A stretch of DNA of 64,000 nt, from the NCBI RefSeq assembly GCF_900156625.1, contig NZ_FTOB01000004.1, positions 682,001 to 746,000 of the forward strand, given 5' to 3'. Below are positions 10,068 through 25,383 of the stretch, piece after piece. How positions within the stretch are numbered: the first letter of the stretch is position 1; each line of letters begins with the position of its first letter. The notes beneath the pieces were generated by a model, which saw only the letters and a list, made by a program, of their open reading frames with translations, was not told the origin of the DNA and made no database searches. The stretch is from Zobellia uliginosa. GTDB taxonomy: Bacteria; Bacteroidota; Bacteroidia; Flavobacteriales; Flavobacteriaceae. The translations under genes and the position numbers were made by a program.

Positions 10068-11297
10068 TTATACGGTCTTTTTGGCTACCAGTTCGCAGAT
10101 TTTGATGATGACCTCGGTGGCCTTTATCATGCTCTCTACGGGAATATATTCGTATTTTCCGTGAAAGTTGTGCCCGCCGGCAAAAATATTGGGGCATGGG
10201 AGTCCCATATAGCTGAGTTGTGAGCCATCGGTGCCGCCACGTATGGGTTTGATAATGGGGGTTACGCGCATGGCTTCCATGGCCTCCTTGGCAATTTCTA
10301 CGATGTGGTATACTGGTTCTACTTTTTCCCTCATATTAAAATACTGATCTTTTAATTCGAGGGTAATACAATTGCCGTGAATTGAATTTAATTTATCGGT
10401 AATATTACGAAGGAGCTGTTTTCTTTTTTCAAAATGGTCTTTGTCGTGGTCACGTACGATAAGCTCAAATTCAGCATGTTCTATAGAGCCTTGAATGTGG
10501 TGTACGTGAAAGAAGCCTTCGCGTCCCTCGGTATTTTGAGGGGTTTCTTCCGGTGGTAAAATCTCGAGGAATTCGCTGGCGATGCTTATGGCGTTTACCA
10601 TTTTGTTTTTGGCGTATCCCGGATGTACGCTCTTTCCTTTTATTACCACCTTGGCACTGGCCGCATTGAAATTTTCGAATTCTAGTTCGCCAATTTGGCT
10701 TCCGTCCATGGTATAGGCCCAATCGGCATCGAATTTTTCAACATCAAAATGATGTGCCCCACGACCAATTTCTTCATCGGGGGTAAAACCGACCCTGATT
10801 TTTCCGTGCTTTATTTCCGGATGGTTGATAAGGTATTCCATGGCCGTGATAATTTCGGTGATGCCGGCCTTGTCATCGGCGCCCAAAAGGGTGGTTCCGT
10901 CAGTAGTGATGAGGGTCTGGCCCTTATACTGCAACAAATCCTCAAAATAATCGGGAGAGAGTATAATATTTTCGTGGGGGTTCAGTACAATGTCCTTGCC
11001 GTCGTAATTCTCTATAATTTGTGGATTGACATTGGTAGCCGTAAAATCGGGAGAGGTGTCAAAATGTGATATAAAGCCTATGGTAGGTACTTCGATGTTG
11101 AGATTACTGGGCAGGGTGGCCGTAATGTAGGCGTTGTTGTCGATGGAAACTTCCTCCATGCCAATTTCCAGTAATTCTTCGACGAGTAAGTCTGCTAAAT
11201 GCCATTGTTTTTCGGTGCTGGGCGTGGTCTTTGATTTGGGGTCGCTTTGAGTATCGATTTTTACATACTTCAAAAAGCGATCGATGATATGCTGCAT
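10068..11297 (-). CDS. pepT: Peptidase T (tripeptide aminopeptidase)
   Basis: 409 aa, standard length for this M20B zinc metallopeptidase, which removes N-terminal residues from tripeptides in the cytoplasm. Metal-binding motifs are all present: SHFDTSPD (His ~79), LLGADDKAG (Asp ~141), TPDEEIGRG (catalytic Glu-Glu ~175), TMDGSQIG (Asp ~196) and AGGHNFHGK (His ~378). [19 protein letters not shown] is the family-specific C-terminal block. A full two-part promoter of the Bacteroidota type lies just upstream. High confidence. Confidence 0.95.
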
Positions 11298-11314
11298 CTA
11301 AAATGTTTTTAAAT

Positions 11315-11441: not shown

Positions 11442-14423
11442 ATGAAAAGAATGTATTTTTTATGCTATGTGCTGTTTTTTTTGGGCATAGCCATTGGAAG
11501 TGCTCAAATCACAGGTACGGTTTCAGATGAAGATGGCCCACTACCCGGTGCATCCGTAGTGGTCAAAGGAACGACGACAGGTTCCACTACCGATTTTGAC
11601 GGATTATTTACGATCAATGCGGAGGTTGGCGATAAGCTGGTTATTTCTTACATCGGTTATGAAACCAAAGAGGTCACGGCCCAGTCGGGTACAATGAAGA
11701 TCAAATTATCTTCGGGAGTAGCCTTGTCAGAGGTTATTATAGTGGGCTCGCGTAACCCGAACAGAACGGCTACCGAGAGTATGGTTCCGGTAGATGTAAT
11801 TAGTATGAAAGAACTGAACAGTGTTGCCCCACAGGTAAACTTAAATCAGATCTTGAATTACGTAGCACCTTCCTTTACTTCAAACACCCAAACTATTTCA
11901 GATGGTACGGATCACATTGATCCGGCTTCTTTAAGGGGCTTAGGTCCTGACCAGGTTTTGGTACTGATTAATGGTAAAAGAAGACATACCTCTTCTTTGA
12001 TCAATGTAAACGGAACTTTCGGACGCGGTAGCGTTGGTACCGATTTAAATGCTATACCGGCAGCTGCCATTCAGCGTATTGAAGTTTTAAGAGATGGGGC
12101 GGCCGCCCAATATGGTTCTGATGCCATAGCGGGGGTCATCAATATCGTTTTGAACAAGAGTGTGAACGAATTGAACATGTCGGTTACCTCTGGTGCTAAT
12201 TTTTCCAAGAACGCCAATGATCAAACAGGCGGGGTAGATGGGGCCACAACTAACATAGCTGCTAGTTATGGGGTTTCTTTAGGGGAAAAAGGAGGTTTGT
12301 TAAACCTTTCTGGTGATTTTGATGTTCGTCAAGATTATAGTAGGATGAAGGAGTGGGAAGGTGGAATTTTTAATGCGTATAACTCAATAGAAAGGCTAGC
12401 GTTAGGTGAAAACTTAGATATTGCCAATCTGCAAGATGCCGATGTAGTTAGACTGTCTCAAAATTTACCCTATTTTGACCAAAATGATAGGGATATTATA
12501 AATGGATTCTCTTCATCTGAATTGCATACCCCAACAAAGAAGGATGATGATGGCAATATTATATTTTATAATCCGCTTTCTAATGATGTTACTGATTCGG
12601 AACTTACTGAAAGAAACCAGAAACGAAGCGATTACAATATGAGGGTCGGTCAGTCGGCTTTACGTGGGGGAAGAATTTTTGCCAACTTTTCCTTGCCTTT
12701 GGATGATAACGGTACCGAAGTCTATTCCTTCGCCGGTATCAGTTCAAGAACGGGTAATTCAGCAGGTTTCTATCGTTTGCCCAATCAAAGCAGAACCTAT
12801 ACACCTGCCTATATGAACGGATTTTTACCTGAAATCAATTCAACTATTAAAGACAGGTCGCTATCGGTCGGTATTAAAGGAAAGATCAATGAATGGGATG
12901 TGGACTTGAGCAATACCTACGGAAAGAACTCTTTTTTATATACCATAGGAAATACCTTTAATGCTTCTATGCAAAATGCATCACCTACCCTTTTTGATGC
13001 AGGGGGATTTTCTTTTGCGCAGAATACGGCCAATTTAGATGTAAGCCGCTTTTTTGAAGATGCGTTGTCTGGATTGAATGTGGCTTTTGGAGCGGAATAC
13101 CGTGTTGAAAATTACGATATAGTGGCTGGGGAACCAGCTTCTTATGGGCAATATGATGGTACGGGGAATATAAATAATCCTTATGATGATATTGTTAGGG
13201 ATGCTGCTGGTGTTCCCGTGTTGGATGCAGAGAAAAAAACAATACCAAATCCAAATTCGGATGTACGTGTACCAACGGATTTCTTCGGGGAATCTAGACC
13301 TGGTGGGTCACAGGTTTTTCCCGGTTTTGGACCGTCAAATGAATTGTCTAGAGGAAGAAGTAGTGTTGCCGGTTATATTGATTTAGAAGCGGATTTTTCA
13401 GAAAAATTCGTTGCTAGTTTTGCTACACGTTTTGAGAATTATAGCGATTTTGGTTCTACCATCAATTTTAAATTGGCAACACGTTATAAGGTCAATGATA
13501 ATATAAACCTTAGGGCCGCAGGGAATACGGGTTTCAGGGCTCCTTCCTTACATCAGATAAACTTCAACTCTACACCTACTATTTTTGATCAGAATGGCGA
13601 CCCGCAAGAAGTGGGTACCTTTGCCAATGATAGTAGGGCCGCTAAGCTTTTGGGTATTCCTGAATTGAAGGAAGAAACTTCAAGTAGTATAAGTGTTGGT
13701 TTTACGGCCAAGATTCCGGATGCAAACTTAACCTTGACCGTAGATGGATATTATGTGGAAATCAATGATAGGGTAGTGTATACAGGTCAATTTGAAGGCC
13801 CGGGTACAGGAACTGAATTGGATAATTTGCTAAGTCAGGCAAATGCAACAGCTGCTTCCTTCTTTGCAAATGCGATCAATACGGAATCTCGTGGATTGGA
13901 TATAGTGCTTACGCATACGGCCAACTTAAGTGATAACTGGAGGTTGAAATCCGATTTGGCGGGTACCTTGTCTAAAACGAATCAAATAGGTGATATTAAT
14001 TCATCAAAAGTGTTAGAAGATGCGGGTCTTGTAAATACTTATTTCCCGGAAGATAGCAGAGTGTACCTGGAAGAGGCTGTCCCTCGTACGAAAATCAACC
14101 TTTCCAACAGCCTTACTTCCGATAAATGGATCATGTTCTTAAGAAATGTGTACTTTGGGGAAGTTACCGAAGCGACTACGGTCATAGCCAACCAACAGGT
14201 TTTTGGAACCAAGGTGGTGACCGACCTTTCCATTGGTTATAAGGCTACCGATGCCTTGACCTTGACCATTGGGGCCAATAACTTATTGGATATCTACCCC
14301 GACAGGGCCGAAGATCAATACAATAACCGTAGTGATGGCCGATTCGATTGGTCGCGTAGGGCACAACAGTTCGGTATTGGAGGACGGTTCTTGTTTGCCC
14401 GTGTAAGTTTCGCTTTAAAGTAG
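11442..14423 (+). CDS. TonB-dependent receptor with carboxypeptidase-like N-terminal domain
   Basis: 993 aa outer-membrane receptor. A signal peptide (residues 1-~22, ending in GSAQ) is followed by a carboxypeptidase-D-regulatory-like domain (ITGTVSDEDGPLPGASVVVK to LVISYIGYETKEV, ~24-95). The plug follows, with LRGLGPDQVLVLINGKRRHT (~165) and IEVLRDGAAAQYGSDAIAGV (~212), and then a ~22-strand barrel ending in FLFARVSFALK. It takes up a ligand too large for porins, driven by TonB. No SusD partner is adjacent, so it is not a classic polysaccharide system. It is a clear paralogue of the receptor at 38742-41690 (same plug motifs and barrel ending). Ligand unknown. Confidence 0.88.
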   Translation: MKRMYFLCYVLFFLGIAIGSAQITGTVSDEDGPLPGASVVVKGTTTGSTTDFDGLFTINAEVGDKLVISYIGYETKEVTAQSGTMKIKLSSGVALSEVIIVGSRNPNRTATESMVPVDVISMKELNSVAPQVNLNQILNYVAPSFTSNTQTISDGTDHIDPASLRGLGPDQVLVLINGKRRHTSSLINVNGTFGRGSVGTDLNAIPAAAIQRIEVLRDGAAAQYGSDAIAGVINIVLNKSVNELNMSVTSGANFSKNANDQTGGVDGATTNIAASYGVSLGEKGGLLNLSGDFDVRQDYSRMKEWEGGIFNAYNSIERLALGENLDIANLQDADVVRLSQNLPYFDQNDRDIINGFSSSELHTPTKKDDDGNIIFYNPLSNDVTDSELTERNQKRSDYNMRVGQSALRGGRIFANFSLPLDDNGTEVYSFAGISSRTGNSAGFYRLPNQSRTYTPAYMNGFLPEINSTIKDRSLSVGIKGKINEWDVDLSNTYGKNSFLYTIGNTFNASMQNASPTLFDAGGFSFAQNTANLDVSRFFEDALSGLNVAFGAEYRVENYDIVAGEPASYGQYDGTGNINNPYDDIVRDAAGVPVLDAEKKTIPNPNSDVRVPTDFFGESRPGGSQVFPGFGPSNELSRGRSSVAGYIDLEADFSEKFVASFATRFENYSDFGSTINFKLATRYKVNDNINLRAAGNTGFRAPSLHQINFNSTPTIFDQNGDPQEVGTFANDSRAAKLLGIPELKEETSSSISVGFTAKIPDANLTLTVDGYYVEINDRVVYTGQFEGPGTGTELDNLLSQANATAASFFANAINTESRGLDIVLTHTANLSDNWRLKSDLAGTLSKTNQIGDINSSKVLEDAGLVNTYFPEDSRVYLEEAVPRTKINLSNSLTSDKWIMFLRNVYFGEVTEATTVIANQQVFGTKVVTDLSIGYKATDALTLTIGANNLLDIYPDRAEDQYNNRSDGRFDWSRRAQQFGIGGRFLFARVSFALK

Positions 14424-18890: not shown

Positions 18891-18913
18891 TTATTTAGAT
18901 TAATTATAAATAG
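18891..18913 (+). promoter_or_regulatory. Putative operator copy 1 (Fur-like, imelysin locus)
   Basis: TTATTTAGATTAATTATAAA (first 20 bases) matches copy 2 at 18 of 23 positions. TATTTA and TAAATA form its outer dyad. About 170 bases upstream of the DUF4856 gene. Confidence 0.45.
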
Positions 18914-18983
18914 TATGGAAATACCCCAAATTTTTATCCCCGATTTTATTCCCCTAGGAGCGGCAATGGCAATGAGGGTCTTA

Positions 18984-19006
18984 TTATTTAGAATAAATAA
19001 AAATTA
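18984..19006 (+). promoter_or_regulatory. Putative operator copy 2 (Fur-like, imelysin locus)
   Basis: Begins TTATTTA-GAA-TAAATAA, a perfect 7-bp inverted repeat with a 3-base spacer, then AAAT. It is 20/21 identical to copy 3 in front of the imelysin gene. The centre lies about 90 bases before the DUF4856 start. Confidence 0.55.
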
Positions 19007-19082
19007 TTTTGCACAGGCAAGCTTCATGTATTAGCTTTGCCACACAATTTAAATCAAGTCTAAATAAACACTTACTCCTATA

Positions 19083-20306
19083 ATGAAAAAAGCCCTGTTT
19101 ACATTGGCCCTTAGTTCGGCAATAGTCCTTACATCATGTAGTTCAGATGATGATGCGTCAGGAATGGACGAAACCATTACGATCGATAATCCCATTAGTT
19201 ATTCTTTTGAACGCGATGGCGAGTCTACCGTAAGTTTCAGTGGTCAGACCACCCGTATCAAAATGGCGCAAGAGCTTTTGGGTAATTTTTTGGATGAAAC
19301 TAATACGGCCGAAAGTTTGAAGTCCATGTTCGCCCATGATGAAGGTGTGGTCGATTTTGAGGATGCCGAGTTAAACGCTTCGGATAAAAGTTTACGGAGT
19401 AAGACGGCGGCCTCCGTAGATTATTTTTATGCAAATACGACGGACCAAGCCCTTATCCGTGCCGATTTCGAGTCATGGATAGAAGCTCAGGTAAATGAAG
19501 TTTTTGAAAACTGGAATGTTAGCGCGGCTGCGGGAATTGCAGGTCAATTGGCCGACGGTGAAAAAATACGCTATGTAAGCGCAAAAGGTCTTGAGTACAA
19601 TCAATTGTTCGCCAAAGGCCTGATAGGGGCTTTAATGACCGATCAAGCGCTCAATAACTACTTGAGTACAGCGGTATTGGATGAATCGTCCAATCGTGCC
19701 GATAACGATGCCGAAACGGTATTGGAGGGCAAGTCTTATACCAATATGGAACATAAATGGGATGAGGCCTATGGTTATGTGTATGGCTTGAATGCCGATG
19801 CTTCTGATCCCAATGCCGATTTGGGAGCCGATAGTTTTTTGAACGAATACATAGGGAAACTTGAAGAAGATGCCGATTTCGCCGGAATAGCAGATGATAT
19901 ATTTCAAGCCTTTAAATTGGGGCGTGCTGCCATTGTAGCGGGAGATTATGAAGTACGTGATGCCCAAGCTGAAATTATTCGAGAGAAAATATCATTAGTG
20001 CCTGCTGTTAGGGGAGTATTTTATATGCAGCGTGCAAAAGCGACCTTAGCGGATGAGGTACCTAATTACGCAAGTGCTTTTCACGCATTGTCTGAAGCTT
20101 ATGGGTTTATCTATAGTTTGCGTTTTACGCGAAAGCCGGGTACGGACACCCCGTATTTTTCAAAAACCGAATCTGATGAGCTTCTAGAAGAATTAATGGA
20201 TGATGGAGCCAATGGCTTGTGGGATTTAAAAGCGGAAACCATAGATGAAATTTCGGAAGATATCGCCGAACGTTTCGGATTTACCGTAGCCCAGGCTGCT
20301 GACTAA
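19083..20306 (+). CDS. DUF4856 lipoprotein
   Basis: 407 aa. It starts with a lipoprotein signal (KKALFTLALSSAIVLTSC, Cys19), then an acidic serine linker (SSDDDASG). The body matches DUF4856, a Bacteroidota family: SYSFERDGESTVSFSGQTTR near residue 40, MEHKWDEAYGYVYG near 220, and FKLGRAAIVAGDYEVRDAQ near 280. The HxWDEAYGY-type motif and a helical make-up recall the imelysin fold. It is probably anchored at the outer membrane or in the periplasm. It heads the locus DUF4856 - imelysin - HTTM - TonB receptor, so a role in iron (or similar cofactor) capture is inferred. Two motif copies lie upstream and a terminator downstream. Confidence 0.82.
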   Translation: MKKALFTLALSSAIVLTSCSSDDDASGMDETITIDNPISYSFERDGESTVSFSGQTTRIKMAQELLGNFLDETNTAESLKSMFAHDEGVVDFEDAELNASDKSLRSKTAASVDYFYANTTDQALIRADFESWIEAQVNEVFENWNVSAAAGIAGQLADGEKIRYVSAKGLEYNQLFAKGLIGALMTDQALNNYLSTAVLDESSNRADNDAETVLEGKSYTNMEHKWDEAYGYVYGLNADASDPNADLGADSFLNEYIGKLEEDADFAGIADDIFQAFKLGRAAIVAGDYEVRDAQAEIIREKISLVPAVRGVFYMQRAKATLADEVPNYASAFHALSEAYGFIYSLRFTRKPGTDTPYFSKTESDELLEELMDDGANGLWDLKAETIDEISEDIAERFGFTVAQAAD

Positions 20307-20342
20307 TGGGGTTGCCCAAGATTAAAATTTAAGTGTTTTTTA

Positions 20343-20387
20343 AAAAAAAAGCAGTGTCTGTTAGTTAATTACAGGCTGCTTTTTTTA
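20343..20387 (+). terminator. Intrinsic terminator between DUF4856 and imelysin genes
   Basis: AAGCAG...CTGCTT outer stem with an inner CTGT/ACAG pairing around a 9-base loop, flanked by A and T runs. It would lower read-through into the imelysin gene, which has its own motif copy just after. Confidence 0.7.
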
Positions 20388-20394
20388 CTTTTGC

Positions 20395-20417
20395 TTAATT
20401 AGAATAAATAAAAATAA
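20395..20417 (+). promoter_or_regulatory. Putative operator copy 3 (Fur-like), before imelysin gene
   Basis: TTAATTA-GAA-TAAATAA followed by AAAT; one difference from copy 2 over 21 bases. It ends 4 bases before the imelysin ATG (20421), so a bound protein would also cover the ribosome-binding region. Confidence 0.55.
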
Positions 20418-20420
20418 GCT

Positions 20421-21557
20421 ATGAGGAGGTTTTTTGCCCTATTTACCGTGGCCACAATGATATGGGCCTGCAGCTCGGATAGTAGTGGAGGAGGTTCATC
20501 GGATGACGTGGATCCGGAACCTGAATCGGTTAGTTTTGAACGGGGACCCATGTTGGCTAACTGGGCCGACAATATTATCAAACCTTCCTATGAAGCTTTT
20601 TCTAGTGAAATGTCGGATTTGCAAACAGCATTTGATACATTCAAAGCCGATGCTACCGAAACCAACCTTGTAGCCTTTAGGGATTCATGGTTATCCGCCT
20701 ATAAAATGTGGCAAAGGGTTTCTATGTTCGAGATAGGTCCGGCCGAAACGGTTGGCTTACGCTTAAACATGAACATTTATCCTACTGATGGGCCTAAAAT
20801 AGACGGTTTTGTAACCTCGGGAACTTATGATCTTGGCCTTGCTTCCAACAGAAATGCCAAAGGCTTCCCTGCTTTAGATTACTTAATTAACGGCTTGGGC
20901 GATACCGATACGGATATCGTGGCAAAATATAATGGAGCTGAAAAAGAAAACCTGATTGCTTATACCGAAGCCATTATTGCCGATATGTCAAGTCTTACAT
21001 CCGGGGTACTTGCAGAATGGAATTCAGGATATAGGGATACTTTTGTGGCCAATGACGGTGCGTCTGCGACCGCATCGGTAGACCGGTTTATCAACGATTA
21101 TATTTTTTACTTTGAGAAATATTTGAGAGCTGGTAAAATGGGAATTCCCTTAGGTGCTTTTTCGGAAAGTGTACTTCCCCAAAATGTTGAGGCCTATTAC
21201 AAAGCCGATGTTTCTAACGAACTTTTTATAGAGGGATTTGAAGCTGTGCACGATTTTTTCAATGGCGTACATTATGGAAAAACGACATCTGGCGAAAGCC
21301 TGGCGTCTTACTTGGATGCACTGAACGAGGTGAAAGATGGTGAAGATTTAACAAAGCTAATCAACGAACAGTTCGACTTGGCTAAGACTAAGGTGGAAGC
21401 CTTGGCTCCTTTTCGTCAAGAACTTGAAGATAATGTGCCGCCCAAAAATATGCTTTTGGCGTATGACGAGGTACAACGCATCGTTCCTTTGTTCAAAGTG
21501 GATATGGTTTCGGCCATGAGCGTTAGTATAGATTTTGTTGATGCCGATGGCGACTAG
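20421..21557 (+). CDS. Imelysin family lipoprotein
   Basis: 378 aa. A lipoprotein signal ends at Cys17 (FFALFTVATMIWAC), followed by a Ser/Gly/Asp linker. The mature part is the two-bundle helical imelysin fold, with FRDSWLSAYKMWQRVSMFEIGPAE near 90 and the block GFPALDYLINGLGDTD near 150. In characterised imelysins that block is G-x-H-x-x-E; here it is G-F-P-A-L-D, so the putative metal residues His and Glu are replaced by Pro and Asp. Imelysins are iron-regulated envelope proteins linked to iron uptake. The HTTM gene follows 3 bases later, so the two are very probably co-translated. Family firm; biochemical role inferred. Confidence 0.87.
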   Translation: MRRFFALFTVATMIWACSSDSSGGGSSDDVDPEPESVSFERGPMLANWADNIIKPSYEAFSSEMSDLQTAFDTFKADATETNLVAFRDSWLSAYKMWQRVSMFEIGPAETVGLRLNMNIYPTDGPKIDGFVTSGTYDLGLASNRNAKGFPALDYLINGLGDTDTDIVAKYNGAEKENLIAYTEAIIADMSSLTSGVLAEWNSGYRDTFVANDGASATASVDRFINDYIFYFEKYLRAGKMGIPLGAFSESVLPQNVEAYYKADVSNELFIEGFEAVHDFFNGVHYGKTTSGESLASYLDALNEVKDGEDLTKLINEQFDLAKTKVEALAPFRQELEDNVPPKNMLLAYDEVQRIVPLFKVDMVSAMSVSIDFVDADGD

Positions 21558-21560
21558 AAA

Positions 21561-22928
21561 ATGAAAGGTTTTTTCGGTAAACATATATCAGCCCCTATAG
21601 AGGCCGCCCCTTTGGCGGTCTTTCGTATTTTATTTGGCGTGATGATGTTGCTGGGTATTGTAAGATTTTGGAGCTACGGATGGATTGAAAAATTATACAT
21701 ACAGCCTAAATTCTTCTTCTCATATTATGGCTTTGAATGGGTGAAACCTTTGGGTGTCTATACCTACCTCATATTTATTATCTGTGGACTTTCGGCCATC
21801 TTTGTAGCACTGGGGTATAAGTATAGAATGGCGATTATTGTGTTTTTTCTCAGCTTTACCTATATAGAGTTGATGGATAAGACCACCTATCTCAACCACT
21901 ACTACTTTATTAGTCTGCTTAGCTTTCTAATGATTTTTTTGCCTGCCAATGCTTACTTTTCTTTGGATGCGAAACTAAACCCTAAAAAAGCCTTTCAGAA
22001 GATTCCGGCTTGGACGGTCAATGGTATCAAGCTCATGTTGGGCATCGTTTATTTTTATGCCGGATTGGCCAAGCTGAACTCCGATTGGCTTTTTGAGGCC
22101 ATGCCCTTGAAAATTTGGTTGCCCTCTAAATTCGATACCCCGCTTTTAGGACAGTTTTTGCACGAAGAATGGGTGCAATATGCTTTTAGCTGGTTCGGCG
22201 CCGGTTATGATTTGGCCATTCCATTCTTGTTGTTGTACAAAAAGACACGCCCTTTTGCCTTTTTAATGGTGGTAGTCTTTCATGTAACGACACGGGTGCT
22301 GTTCCCTATTGGGATGTTTCCATATGTCATGATAGTCTCTACGTTAATATTCTTCGATTCATCTTTCCATCATAAGCTCTTGAGCTATGTTAGTGGTCTT
22401 TTCCGAATACCCAAAAATCGCTTTGACAACGGTCAGGTCTTGGTTTTGACCTCGAATGTAAAAACGAATTCCAAACTGGTTGTAATAGCTGTCTTTTTTG
22501 CGGTGCAATTGTTGATGCCTTGGCGCTATCTAGCGTATCCGGGAGAATTGTTTTGGACGGAAGAGGGATATCGTTTCTCTTGGCGGGTGATGCTTATGGA
22601 AAAATCGGGCTATGCCCAGTTCAAGGTGGTGAGCAAAGATTCAGGGAGGTGGTTTTATGTCGATAATTCCGATTTTTTGACGCCCTTCCAAGAAAAACAA
22701 ATGTCTTTTCAACCTGATTTTATATTAGAATACGCACATTATCTGAAAAGGCATTTTGAAAAAGATGGACACAAAAATGTGCAAATATTCGTCGATTGCC
22801 GGGTAGCCTTGAACGGGAGGTTAAGTACTACCTACATCGACCCAAAAGTAGACCTTGCCCAAGAGCGGGAGTCGTTTGAACATAAAAGTTGGATAATACC
22901 TTTTACTGATGAAATTAAGGGAATTTAG
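21561..22928 (+). CDS. HTTM-domain (gamma-carboxylase-like) membrane protein
   Basis: 455 aa. Residues ~1-290 are a multi-spanning membrane region of the HTTM family, related to vitamin K-dependent gamma-glutamyl carboxylase. The hallmark MDKTTYLNHYYFISLLSFLM lies near residue 110, with GIVYFYAGLAKLNSDWLFEA near 165. The C-terminal ~130 residues are soluble (FSWRVMLMEKSGYAQFKVVS to a basic-acidic end). Known carboxylases use reduced quinone to carboxylate Glu residues; whether this protein is active is unknown. It is 3 bases behind the imelysin gene and overlaps the next TonB receptor by 20 bases, so all three are a translationally coupled unit. A role in maturing the imelysin or receptor is an inference. 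Confidence 0.83.
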   Translation: MKGFFGKHISAPIEAAPLAVFRILFGVMMLLGIVRFWSYGWIEKLYIQPKFFFSYYGFEWVKPLGVYTYLIFIICGLSAIFVALGYKYRMAIIVFFLSFTYIELMDKTTYLNHYYFISLLSFLMIFLPANAYFSLDAKLNPKKAFQKIPAWTVNGIKLMLGIVYFYAGLAKLNSDWLFEAMPLKIWLPSKFDTPLLGQFLHEEWVQYAFSWFGAGYDLAIPFLLLYKKTRPFAFLMVVVFHVTTRVLFPIGMFPYVMIVSTLIFFDSSFHHKLLSYVSGLFRIPKNRFDNGQVLVLTSNVKTNSKLVVIAVFFAVQLLMPWRYLAYPGELFWTEEGYRFSWRVMLMEKSGYAQFKVVSKDSGRWFYVDNSDFLTPFQEKQMSFQPDFILEYAHYLKRHFEKDGHKNVQIFVDCRVALNGRLSTTYIDPKVDLAQERESFEHKSWIIPFTDEIKGI

Positions 22929-25383
22929 TATCGTATTTATAGTATTCTTAACCTCGTTTTCCGGCTTTTCGCAGATTACGATTTCTGGTAAGGTAACGGA
23001 TAAAAAAGGGAAGCCAGTTCAAGATGCAGAGGTGTATTTAAAAGAGGTGCAACTTCTAAAAACTACCGATGCCGATGGTAATTTTGAATTTCCCGATATT
23101 TCCGGAGGTAAGTATACCGTAGTAGTCTTCGCTTTTGAATATGATATATATGAAAAGGAATTGACCTTTGATTCCGCCTTTAATCTTAATGTTCAACTTC
23201 AACGTATAAAATCACAGGAACTTTCAGAGGTGGTTCTGACCCAAAGAAGGGAAAAGATATTCGCTTTAAAGCAATTAAAAAAGGTGGAAGGCACCGCTAT
23301 TTATGCCGGTAAAAAAACAGAGGTCGTGCTTATGGAGGGCCTTACCGGAAACCTTGCGGCCAACAATGCCAGACAAATCTACAGCCAGGTTGTGGGTTTG
23401 AATATTTATGATAATGGCGATGCCGGTTTGCAGCTAAATATTGGAGGTAGGGGATTGGACCCTAATAGAACGGCTAATTTCAATACACGCCAGAACGGTT
23501 ATGATATTAGTGCGGATGTGTTGGGTTACCCGGAAAGTTATTATACCCCACCTGCGGAAGCGCTTGAGGAAATTCAAGTAGTACGTGGTGCGGCTTCTTT
23601 GCAATACGGCCCTCAATTTGGGGGCTTGATCAATTTTAAGTTTAAAAAGCCAAATCCCAACAAAGAAATAGAGCTCATTTCCCGTCAGACCGTCGGTTCG
23701 TACAATCTGTTTACAAGCTTCAATAGTTTGGGGGGTACGGTGGGTAAATTCAGTTATTACACCTATCTGAGTTATAAAGATGGAAATGGCTTCCGGCCGA
23801 ATTCAAATTTTAACAGCAAGAACTATTTTACGCATTTGGGCTACGAGATTTCCGATAAAACCAAAGTAAGCCTAGAGACCACGTTCTTGCACTATTTAGC
23901 GAAGCAACCAGGTGGTCTGACCGATGCCCAATTTTATGAAAATCCAAGGTTTAGCAATCGTGATAGAAACTGGTTCGAAGTAGATTGGCGCCTATATTCG
24001 TTTCGTTTAGATCACGCCTTTTCTCCAAAGACAGATTTTAGTCTCAACGTTTTCGGTTTGAATGCCTCTCGTAGGGCCTTGGGTTTTCGTACCAATAGGG
24101 TTTCCCAAGATGATATTATTACTGAACCAAGGGAATTGTTGATCGATGATTTTAGCAACTGGGGTGCAGAAGCAAGGGTGTTGACAAGATATAAAATGGC
24201 GGGTACCGAATCGGCTCTTTTATTAGGTTCCAAAATTTATAAAACCAATAATGACCAAAGGCAAGGATCGGGCACTGCGGCTGCCGATGCCGATTTTAAT
24301 TTTGCCGATGCCAGTTTTCCAAACTATGAAAGACAGTCTCAGTTCAATTTTCCGAACTTCAATGTGGCTTTGTTCGGGGAGAACATCTTCAACCTTTCAG
24401 ATAGATTGGCCGTAACACCGGGGTTTCGTTTGGAACACATTAAAACAGAAAGTATAGGTAGCTACCAAGAGATTGCTTTAGATTTGGCAGGTAACCCATT
24501 ACTGAATAGAGCGGTAGAAGATAACAGGGTTTTTGATAGAACCTTTGTTCTGTTAGGACTGGGGGCTACATATAAGCTGTCGCCTAGTGTGGAGTTATAC
24601 GGTAATTTTTCACAAAACTACCGTTCCGTAACTTTTAGTGATATACGGGTGGTGAATCCTTCTTTTCAAGTCGATCCAAATATTTCAGATGAAGATGGCT
24701 TTACCGCAGATTTTGGTGCCAGGGGAAGATTTAAAGATATGTTATCGTATGACGTAAGCTTATATGGGCTTTATTATGATAATAGGCTAGGGGAGATATT
24801 GAAAGAGGAAACGCAGGTTAACGCAGCTGGAGAAGAAGTTTCAACAGGAAGGTTGTTGCGGGCAAGAGGCAATATAGGAACCGCGTTTATTTATGGCCTC
24901 GAAAGTTTTGCAAACTGGAGCTTAAAGGAAACCTTCTTTCCACAATCGGAAAAAGTGAAATTGAATTACTTTGCCAATGTGGCGATCACTAAATCGGAAT
25001 ACCTTTCTTCTGAACGGAACAATGTAGAAGGCAAGGAAGTGGAATTCATACCTGAGGTAAATCTTAAGACGGGATTAAATTTTGGTTATGATAATCTTTT
25101 GGGAAGCCTTCAGTATACTTATTTTGCCGATCAGTTTACCGATGCTACCAATGCGTCACAAGACGTAAATGATAACCAAAGAGGAATAGAAGGGGTGATT
25201 CCTGCCTATGATATTTTGGATTTTTCGCTCTCGTACACCTATAAAAAATGGAAGTTGGAAGCGGGTATCAATAACCTTTTAGATAATTCATATTTTACCC
25301 GAAGGGCTACAGGTTACCCGGGGCCAGGTATTATTCCATCCGAACCGAGAACATTTTATACAACGCTTCAGCTCAAATTGTAG
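22909..25383 (+). CDS. TonB-dependent receptor of the imelysin locus (FecA-like)
   Basis: 824 aa outer-membrane receptor. Signal peptide (~1-20, ends in FSGFSQ), carboxypeptidase-like domain (ITISGKVTDKKGKPVQDAEV, ~22-95), then a plug with LQLNIGGRGLDPNRTANFNT near 175 and IQVVRGAASLQYGPQFGGLI near 225, then a barrel ending TFYTTLQLKL. The plug resembles FecA-type iron-chelate receptors more than SusC. The ATG sits inside the end of the HTTM gene (20-base overlap), so its expression follows that of the imelysin operon. It is distinct in length and sequence from the receptor pair at 11442 and 38742. Ligand inferred to be a ferric chelate or haem; not demonstrated. Confidence 0.87.
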   Translation: MKLREFSIVFIVFLTSFSGFSQITISGKVTDKKGKPVQDAEVYLKEVQLLKTTDADGNFEFPDISGGKYTVVVFAFEYDIYEKELTFDSAFNLNVQLQRIKSQELSEVVLTQRREKIFALKQLKKVEGTAIYAGKKTEVVLMEGLTGNLAANNARQIYSQVVGLNIYDNGDAGLQLNIGGRGLDPNRTANFNTRQNGYDISADVLGYPESYYTPPAEALEEIQVVRGAASLQYGPQFGGLINFKFKKPNPNKEIELISRQTVGSYNLFTSFNSLGGTVGKFSYYTYLSYKDGNGFRPNSNFNSKNYFTHLGYEISDKTKVSLETTFLHYLAKQPGGLTDAQFYENPRFSNRDRNWFEVDWRLYSFRLDHAFSPKTDFSLNVFGLNASRRALGFRTNRVSQDDIITEPRELLIDDFSNWGAEARVLTRYKMAGTESALLLGSKIYKTNNDQRQGSGTAAADADFNFADASFPNYERQSQFNFPNFNVALFGENIFNLSDRLAVTPGFRLEHIKTESIGSYQEIALDLAGNPLLNRAVEDNRVFDRTFVLLGLGATYKLSPSVELYGNFSQNYRSVTFSDIRVVNPSFQVDPNISDEDGFTADFGARGRFKDMLSYDVSLYGLYYDNRLGEILKEETQVNAAGEEVSTGRLLRARGNIGTAFIYGLESFANWSLKETFFPQSEKVKLNYFANVAITKSEYLSSERNNVEGKEVEFIPEVNLKTGLNFGYDNLLGSLQYTYFADQFTDATNASQDVNDNQRGIEGVIPAYDILDFSLSYTYKKWKLEAGINNLLDNSYFTRRATGYPGPGIIPSEPRTFYTTLQLKL

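Follow-up and report, generated by a model that had tools for sequence, protein, structure and literature searches.

Predicted Fur operators of the flavobacterial type at a DUF4856, imelysin and TonB receptor cassette of Zobellia uliginosa

Organisation of the locus

The DNA analysed here, referred to as the window, is a stretch of 64,000 nucleotides from Zobellia uliginosa (GCF_900156625.1, contig NZ_FTOB01000004.1, 682,001-746,000 of the forward strand; genome of 5.30 Mb in 27 contigs), and contains a cassette of four consecutive genes on the plus strand with AT-rich, palindrome-like motifs before the first and the second of them. The genes encode a DUF4856 lipoprotein (19083-20306; PF16148, E 9e-162), an imelysin-like lipoprotein (20421-21557, ATG at 20421; PF09375, E 2.5e-29), an HTTM/vitamin-K-dependent gamma-carboxylase-like membrane protein (21561-22928; PF05090 and PF22777) and a siderophore-receptor-like TonB-dependent receptor (22909-25383; PF00593, PF07715; the top NCBIfam match, TIGR01783, is under its cut-off). 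A related-locus search identified Zobellia as the closest named relatives.

A sequence-only reading of the window had drawn attention to three copies of the motif, beginning at 18891, 18984 and 20395, with identities of 18/23 between copies 1 and 2 and 20/21 between copies 2 and 3, and to the perfect TTATTTA and TAAATAA arms around GAA in copy 2, all of which agrees with the sequence. In copy 2 the dyad that fits a Fur box (18986-19004) has its centre at 18995, shifted rightward by 3 bases from that of TTATTTA-GAA-TAAATAA at 18992. Copy 3 stands directly before the imelysin ATG with three bases between them, as the 23-base copy ends at 20417 and the ATG is at 20421. All three copies exist, but a fourth box at 19047-19065 had been missed.

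Three of the four predicted boxes, all given on the plus strand, precede the DUF4856 gene. Box 1 (copy 1, ATTTAGATTAATTATAAAT, 18893-18911) would be located upstream at about -151 to -133 from the predicted transcription start, box 2 (copy 2, ATTTAGAATAAATAAAAAT, 18986-19004) at about -58 to -40, just upstream of the -33 region, and box 4 (ATTTAAATCAAGTCTAAAT, 19047-19065) at about +4 to +22. The predicted DUF4856 promoter consists of a -33-like TTTG (19008-19011) 20 bases before a -7 element (TAGCTTTG, 19032-19039), the latter matching the flavobacterial -7 consensus TAnnTTTG (PMC9723704). Box 3 (copy 3, AATTAGAATAAATAAAAAT, 20397-20415) is predicted to lie on the transcription start of the imelysin gene. 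Distances to the respective ATG are 78 bases for copy 2, 17 for the fourth box and 5 for copy 3, which are inside the published range of approximately 100 bp, and 171 for copy 1, which is outside it.

Match to the published Fur box

The Fur box of the flavobacterium Riemerella anatipestifer is a 19-bp palindrome, ATTTAGAATTATTCTAAAT, predicted in 2017; the 11 sites in Table 5 of that study are all within 100 bp of the start codon and precede iron- and haem-uptake genes among others, and the purified Fur shifts four tested promoters in electrophoretic mobility shift assays (EMSA) (PMC5609570). A second EMSA with R. anatipestifer Fur used a promoter with ATTTAGAATTATCCTAAAT (PMC10986502). It is well established in general that iron-loaded Fur binds boxes of this kind and represses.

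A matrix (matrix 1) was made from 10 of the 11 published sites, RAYM_06185 being omitted as the reverse complement of RAYM_06180. It ranks copies 1, 2 and 3 as 1st, 2nd and 3rd of the ~64,000 window positions (scores 23.0, 19.1 and 17.3), followed by 11296 (16.1, rank 4) and the fourth box at 19047 (14.9, rank 5). When the whole window was shuffled 50 times, 17.3 was reached in two shuffles, 19.1 in one and 23 in none; with 2000 local dinucleotide shuffles the score of copy 1 was never reached, that of copy 2 three times, that of copy 3 once and that of the fourth box 52 times. A second matrix (matrix 2) was derived from 52 distinct sites that precede DUF4856 in relatives outside Zobellia, and was seeded by matrix 1, so it is independent of the window, though not of the published box. 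It scores copy 1 at 26.4, copy 2 and the fourth box equally at 22.3, copy 3 at 13.8, 11296 at 8.5 and all other positions at 6.9 or less. Relative to the refined consensus ATTTAGAWTNAWTCTAAAT, copy 1 has one mismatch, copy 2 two, and copy 3 and the fourth box three each.

Within the window, and with three mismatches allowed, the core common to copies 2 and 3 is found twice, exactly in both cases, where 0.28 matches are expected; 2 of 100 shuffles reached two matches. As a 19-base string it occurs at two exact places in the 5.3-Mb genome.

Conservation among relatives

The related-locus search returned 57 imelysin loci, 55 of which (51 distinct sequences) were scored before DUF4856; L080 and L094 were excluded as they start inside or at the imelysin gene and have no upstream gene, and other losses occurred at contig ends. 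Some loci are near-identical (e.g. L062-L066, L069/L070), and the counts are thus not independent. All 55 relatives have a score of at least 14 within 250 bp before DUF4856, compared to 4.8 for shuffled sequence and no more than 33 for any of 200 column-permuted matrices. Scores of at least 17 were found in 45 of 55 (0.6 in shuffles, at most 14 with permuted matrices), and two separate boxes (at least 13) also in 45 (0.6 in shuffles). Of these 45 two-box relatives, 43 have a TAnnTTTG element separating the pair of boxes closest to the ATG (3.4 in shuffles). The remaining 682 kb of the relatives' loci contain 30 matches of at least 14, or 0.044 per kb.

Grouped by distance, 49 of the 55 have a box no more than 50 bases from the ATG, the place of the fourth box; 48 have one at 55-135 bases, and 42 have both. 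The narrower place of copy 2, 55-105 bases before the ATG, holds a box of at least 13 in 42 relatives. The common core consists of two boxes flanking the DUF4856 promoter, represented in the window by copy 2 and the fourth box. The same fourth box is present in the four named Zobellia loci (L043-L046), which are also the only four relatives with a counterpart of copy 1 at the same distance. The expectation that related genomes would share the motif is borne out for a box before DUF4856, but not for the place of copy 1 (4/55), nor for copy 3, the conservation of which is limited to one clade.

Searched with the published pattern at up to three mismatches, 33 of 40 relatives' genomes have more matches than the reversed control and two have equal numbers (879 versus 503 matches in total). 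A survey across 118 genomes of the phylum, with ATTTAGAWTNAWTCTAAAT at up to one mismatch, gave 3 matches versus 0 for the reversed control in the Z. uliginosa genome itself, 29 versus 4 in the same family (10 genomes), 4 versus 0 in the same order (two genomes), 20 versus 1 in the same class (16 genomes) and 61 versus 8 in other classes (89 genomes, 29 of which have a match). The box extends past the family, yet is missing from many genomes of the phylum.

Box places across the genome

In the Z. uliginosa genome the pattern ATTTAGAATNATTCTAAAT has 20 places at up to three mismatches, compared to five for its reversed control. Sixteen of the 20 are intergenic according to a simple open-frame call, as are three of the five control places, two of which overlap true box places. 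The refined ATTTAGAWTNAWTCTAAAT has 39 places versus 18 for the control, 15 of them with up to two mismatches; copy 1 is among only three places in the genome within one mismatch. Two of the 15 best places are in the present locus. The other putative targets are two AraC/TonB-receptor intergenes, a third TonB receptor, a TonB receptor with DUF6607, FeoA, HemA with an AraC gene, an Fe-S assembly cluster with SufB, a second imelysin gene, a multihaem cytochrome, a 111-residue protein without a Pfam match followed by a ferritin gene, and an NAD(P) oxidoreductase with DUF547, while two places inside open frames have no clear target. Iron, haem or Fe-S neighbours are found at 10 of the 15 places, including the two here, or at 12 if the cytochrome and the ferritin neighbour are counted. 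The four TonB-receptor targets weigh less than the others, since such receptors are abundant in genomes of this kind. Compared to background across the genome, the test that the sequence-only reading proposed, the palindromic Fur box succeeds (20 versus five) and the literal core of the copies fails.

The second imelysin gene is the more typical of the two (PF09375, E 1e-72), and its Fur box, with two mismatches, is located 70 bases before the start (L135:1501-1519; G000:C16:713555). Within the window there is also a Fur-box-like sequence at 11296-11314 (ATCTAAAATGTTTTTAAAT), 127 bases before a TonB receptor gene at 11442. Among eight other Zobellia the same register is partly kept in one (10.3) and a shifted register overlaps in three (13.0, 13.8 and 16.3); with in-register retention only partial in that one of the eight, conservation of this box is not claimed.

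The DUF4856-imelysin junction

A terminator-like hairpin with a T tract (20344-20386, plus strand; -15.7 kcal/mol, z -3.1) is located between the DUF4856 and imelysin genes. The equivalent stretch folds strongly in 10 of 11 loci (z -3.1 to -6.9; the stretch of L075 was mis-cut), and the stem sequence varies among loci while the hairpin is retained at the equivalent place. The end of the T tract abuts the -7 element of a predicted separate imelysin promoter (TACTTTTG, 20386-20393, plus strand), so that tract and element merge (20344-20393), as they do, by eye, in Zobellia and most Maribacter junctions. Judged from the published position of this element, -12 to -5, the transcription start would be at about 20398, and copy 3 would take up roughly -1 to +18, in a leader of 23 bases.

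Junctions were scored with n=54 for boxes and n=55 for the promoter table; that of L087 was trimmed by 104 bases as its start codon looked misassigned. Eight of 54 reach a score of at least 17 (0.2 in shuffles; matched by none of 200 permuted matrices). Of the 55 junctions, 15 carry an element like copy 3, and TAnnTTTG accompanies it in 14 of these 15, compared to 8 of the other 40 (Fisher 9e-7, uncorrected for kinship). Across 13 rows, namely the window and 12 loci chosen for carrying copy 3, with the also copy-3-like L077, L081 and L087 left out, copy 3 and the bases that follow it are nearly invariant.

These observations bear on the strongest of the alternatives, that copy 3, unlike the other three boxes, is not mainly a Fur operator but a leader or translation-initiation element, made up of the transcription start and an A-rich stretch ahead of the ATG, that happens to resemble one. 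It is favoured by the near-invariance of copy 3 while the hairpin before it changes, by the canonical right arm not being shown by copy 3 in the loci inspected, and by the way in which copy 3 travels with the imelysin promoter and ends so close to the ATG. However, matrix 1, which comes from another genus, puts copy 3 third in the window, and L081 has a full left arm, ATTTAGAAT, at the place of copy 3. A comparable asymmetry is found in a published R. anatipestifer site, RAYM_00450, at a distance of 9 bases from the ATG (PMC5609570). In addition, the 17-base core of copy 3 has only 13 exact places in 40 genomes: nine at the imelysin gene (once per genome, in nine genomes of the genus), two at copy 2 (in two of these nine genomes) and two in further genomes whose 3-kb surroundings are without cassette genes. 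A general leader element is rejected on these counts, and a gene-specific leader function stays. We regard copy 3 as a putative Fur operator with a weaker left arm and additional leader duties; a leader element in the strict sense is a serious competing explanation, though a rather unlikely one.

Tentatively, and with odds well below even, the junction may be a fused switch, in which the terminator's T tract continues into the -7 element while an asymmetric Fur operator is spread over the transcription start and almost all of the 23-base leader. Some 75 bases would then serve termination, initiation, iron repression and the context of the start codon. If true, the shape of this operator would be a compromise among overlapping tasks, which would explain its invariance within the clade while other Fur boxes drift. 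The sequence-only reading suggested that a regulator bound at copy 3 could block translation as well as transcription, and the former does not follow because Fur binds duplex DNA.

Twelve Aequorivita and Leeuwenhoekiella junctions (L059-L065, L067, L071-L073, L089) do not have copy 3, and many have a hairpin-like sequence by eye. TAnnTTTG is missing in 10 of the 12, and imelysin may therefore depend on read-through from DUF4856 there.

Regulator and proposed mechanism

The computed match to the box, its enrichment, targets, conservation and layout point to the motifs being, very probably, Fur operators of the flavobacterial type with the consensus ATTTAGAWTNAWTCTAAAT, binding at this locus being predicted from the DNA. 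The suggestion of a Fur-like repressor operator linking the locus is supported by the first three ranks with matrix 1, by the 55 of 55 relatives and by the 10 of 15 iron-linked targets.

Three Fur-family genes are present in the genome (best E 7e-26). The best is between the RelA/SpoT and adenylosuccinate synthetase (purA) genes, and the nearest solved chains of its product are Fur proteins. In Flavobacterium psychrophilum purA is also downstream of Fur (PMC9331221).

Under the proposed mechanism, iron-loaded Fur, most likely from the gene at G000:C13:506406-506768, would occupy box 2, just ahead of the -33 region, and box 4, just past the transcription start, so that when iron is plentiful the DUF4856 promoter would be held down from both sides and RNA polymerase blocked. 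Copy 1 would be a third, more distal Fur site. The hairpin would separate DUF4856 from a unit of imelysin, HTTM and TonB receptor genes with its own promoter, and copy 3, on the start site of this second promoter, could place the second unit under Fur control too. We infer Fur binding, iron repression, the start sites and termination, as well as binding to copy 3 despite its weaker left arm.

Several results weigh against this account. The literal core of copies 2 and 3 has 24 matches genome-wide at up to three mismatches, fewer than the 33 of its reversed control, which makes it unusable as a regulon matrix and, by the criterion of the sequence-only reading itself, would count against the idea as a whole. 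The reversed control of the published pattern also matches often (503 times in 40 genomes), and five genomes have fewer matches than their control. In three of the four named Zobellia no more than 11.3 is scored at the place of copy 2, and the box pair there is made up of copy 1 and the fourth box instead. At the junction, a score of at least 14 was found in 9 of 54 relatives (0.9 in shuffles), a number matched by 2 of 200 permuted matrices, and copy 3 falls to rank 4 with matrix 2 and keeps its asymmetric sequence.

Expression data from R. anatipestifer point both ways. In favour of the account, Table 4 lists as putatively Fur-regulated RAYM_09779 (TonB receptor), RAYM_09784 (vitamin K-dependent gamma-carboxylase), RAYM_09789 (imelysin lipoprotein) and RAYM_09794 (hypothetical), with ratios, in this order, of 2.11, 2.64, 3.07 and 2.41 for low iron versus iron in the wild type and 1.90, 1.39, 1.93 and 1.36 for the fur deletion versus the wild type, both with iron (PMC5609570). 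Against it, the ratios for low iron versus iron within the fur deletion are 2.70, 2.77, 2.92 and 3.07 (PMC5609570). The effect of the deletion on this gene set is smaller than that of low iron, and Table 5 of the same paper lists no box for RAYM_09779-09794. Most Table 4 genes are still iron-responsive when fur is deleted, and the response often equals that of the wild type (PMC5609570).

Because iron still acts without fur in R. anatipestifer, Fur may not act alone, and a second iron-linked regulator in flavobacteria is possible. The same persistence of the iron response gives weight to a second alternative, that the motif is read by another iron-linked regulator, be it a repressor of the DtxR/MntR type or an activator like MliR, or that such a regulator controls the genes alongside Fur. 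An imelysin-like transcript of Bizionia argentinensis drops without MliR (PMC9478572), and with three Fur-family genes in the genome a paralogue could read the motif. However, the motif fits the box in promoters shifted by R. anatipestifer Fur in EMSA (PMC5609570, PMC10986502), the passages on MliR give no binding site for it (PMC9478572), and the residual iron response could be explained by Fur sensing another metal or by a growth effect, so we consider this alternative improbable. Chance resemblance of AT-rich intergenic DNA, for which the A+T content of the region (69-74%) and the lack of enrichment of the literal core might be cited, is very hard to reconcile with the shuffles, the permuted matrices and the 55 of 55 relatives.

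Other features of the cassette proteins

A 20-base overlap between the HTTM and TonB-receptor genes (22909-22928) suggests that their translation is coupled. The HTTM gamma-carboxylase-like protein is a steady companion of imelysin and the TonB receptor from Flavobacteriaceae to one genome each of Balneolaceae (L074) and Saprospiraceae (L078), and, judged by gene names, also in R. anatipestifer (PMC5609570).

The DUF4856 protein contains a conserved TxMEHKWDEAYGY stretch, and its predicted structure is mostly helical, with a mean predicted local distance difference test score (pLDDT) of 91.8. A Foldseek search with this model gave no matches at E <= 0.001, and a search of its sequence against solved structures gave no relative up to E 1. 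A function could not be assigned from the fold: the best Z was 7.7, to an alpha-catenin-type chain, and two imelysin-type entries at Z 4.6 and 3.4 are regarded as helical-protein noise. It weakly matches an NCBIfam FEA1-related lipoprotein (25.8 bits, cut-off 250); FEA1 is an iron-assimilation protein of algae.

We take GFPALD in the imelysin-like protein (20421-21557), placed by eye, to be at the position of the GxHxxE motif, and presumably it resembles the IPPA-type imelysin branch without the histidine. The GxHxxE motif is that of PMC3143127.

Comparison with known systems

The kind of operator is known and its regulation largely so, and it is the boxes and their layout at this locus that are new; the literature searched gave no earlier mention of the boxes, of their arrangement on two sides or of the joined terminator, promoter and box. 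That search found no paper with DUF4856 and none joining imelysin with HTTM by that name (PMC5609570 uses gamma-carboxylase). For TTTAGAAT with Fur box it found only the R. anatipestifer literature, and, as subscription journals and RegPrecise were outside the search, another description is possible. Literature on Fur regulons and binding sites in flavobacteria gave nothing closer by title.

The enterobacterial Fur box, GATAATGATAATCATTATC, is likewise 19 bases long and palindromic, with a similar central pattern, but its centred identity is only 9/19 with copy 1, 8/19 with copy 2, 6/19 with the fourth box and 9/19 with copy 3 (12, 11, 9 and 11 of 19, respectively, at the best nearby offset). 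Identities with the R. anatipestifer consensus are 17/19, 16/19, 15/19 and 15/19 in the same order, and the sequence-only reading was correct in that the motif is unlike the enterobacterial box. Its further proposal of a new Bacteroidota-specific operator was not borne out, the R. anatipestifer box and EMSA having been printed in 2017 (PMC5609570).

In Pseudomonas aeruginosa the imelysin-like proteins of the PA4370-PA4373 operon are similarly under Fur control (PMC3143127), but in the present cassette imelysin is accompanied by DUF4856, an HTTM/gamma-carboxylase-like protein and a TonB receptor, and an EfeB-like peroxidase is not among the four genes.

Iron control of a like cassette is already in print for R. 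anatipestifer, where Fur takes part and does not explain all of it (PMC5609570). The present analysis provides candidate operators for the DUF4856, imelysin, gamma-carboxylase-like HTTM and TonB receptor cassette, which was listed in R. anatipestifer without a box, and carries the published box over to marine Bacteroidota with a conserved two-box layout. It makes the iron control of the cassette directly testable, and defines no new kind of operator. Both systems have the same type of box and four consecutive genes named alike (with the hypothetical protein as a possible counterpart of DUF4856), but the arrangement in Z. uliginosa differs in that two boxes bracket the first promoter, a third is farther upstream and one precedes imelysin.

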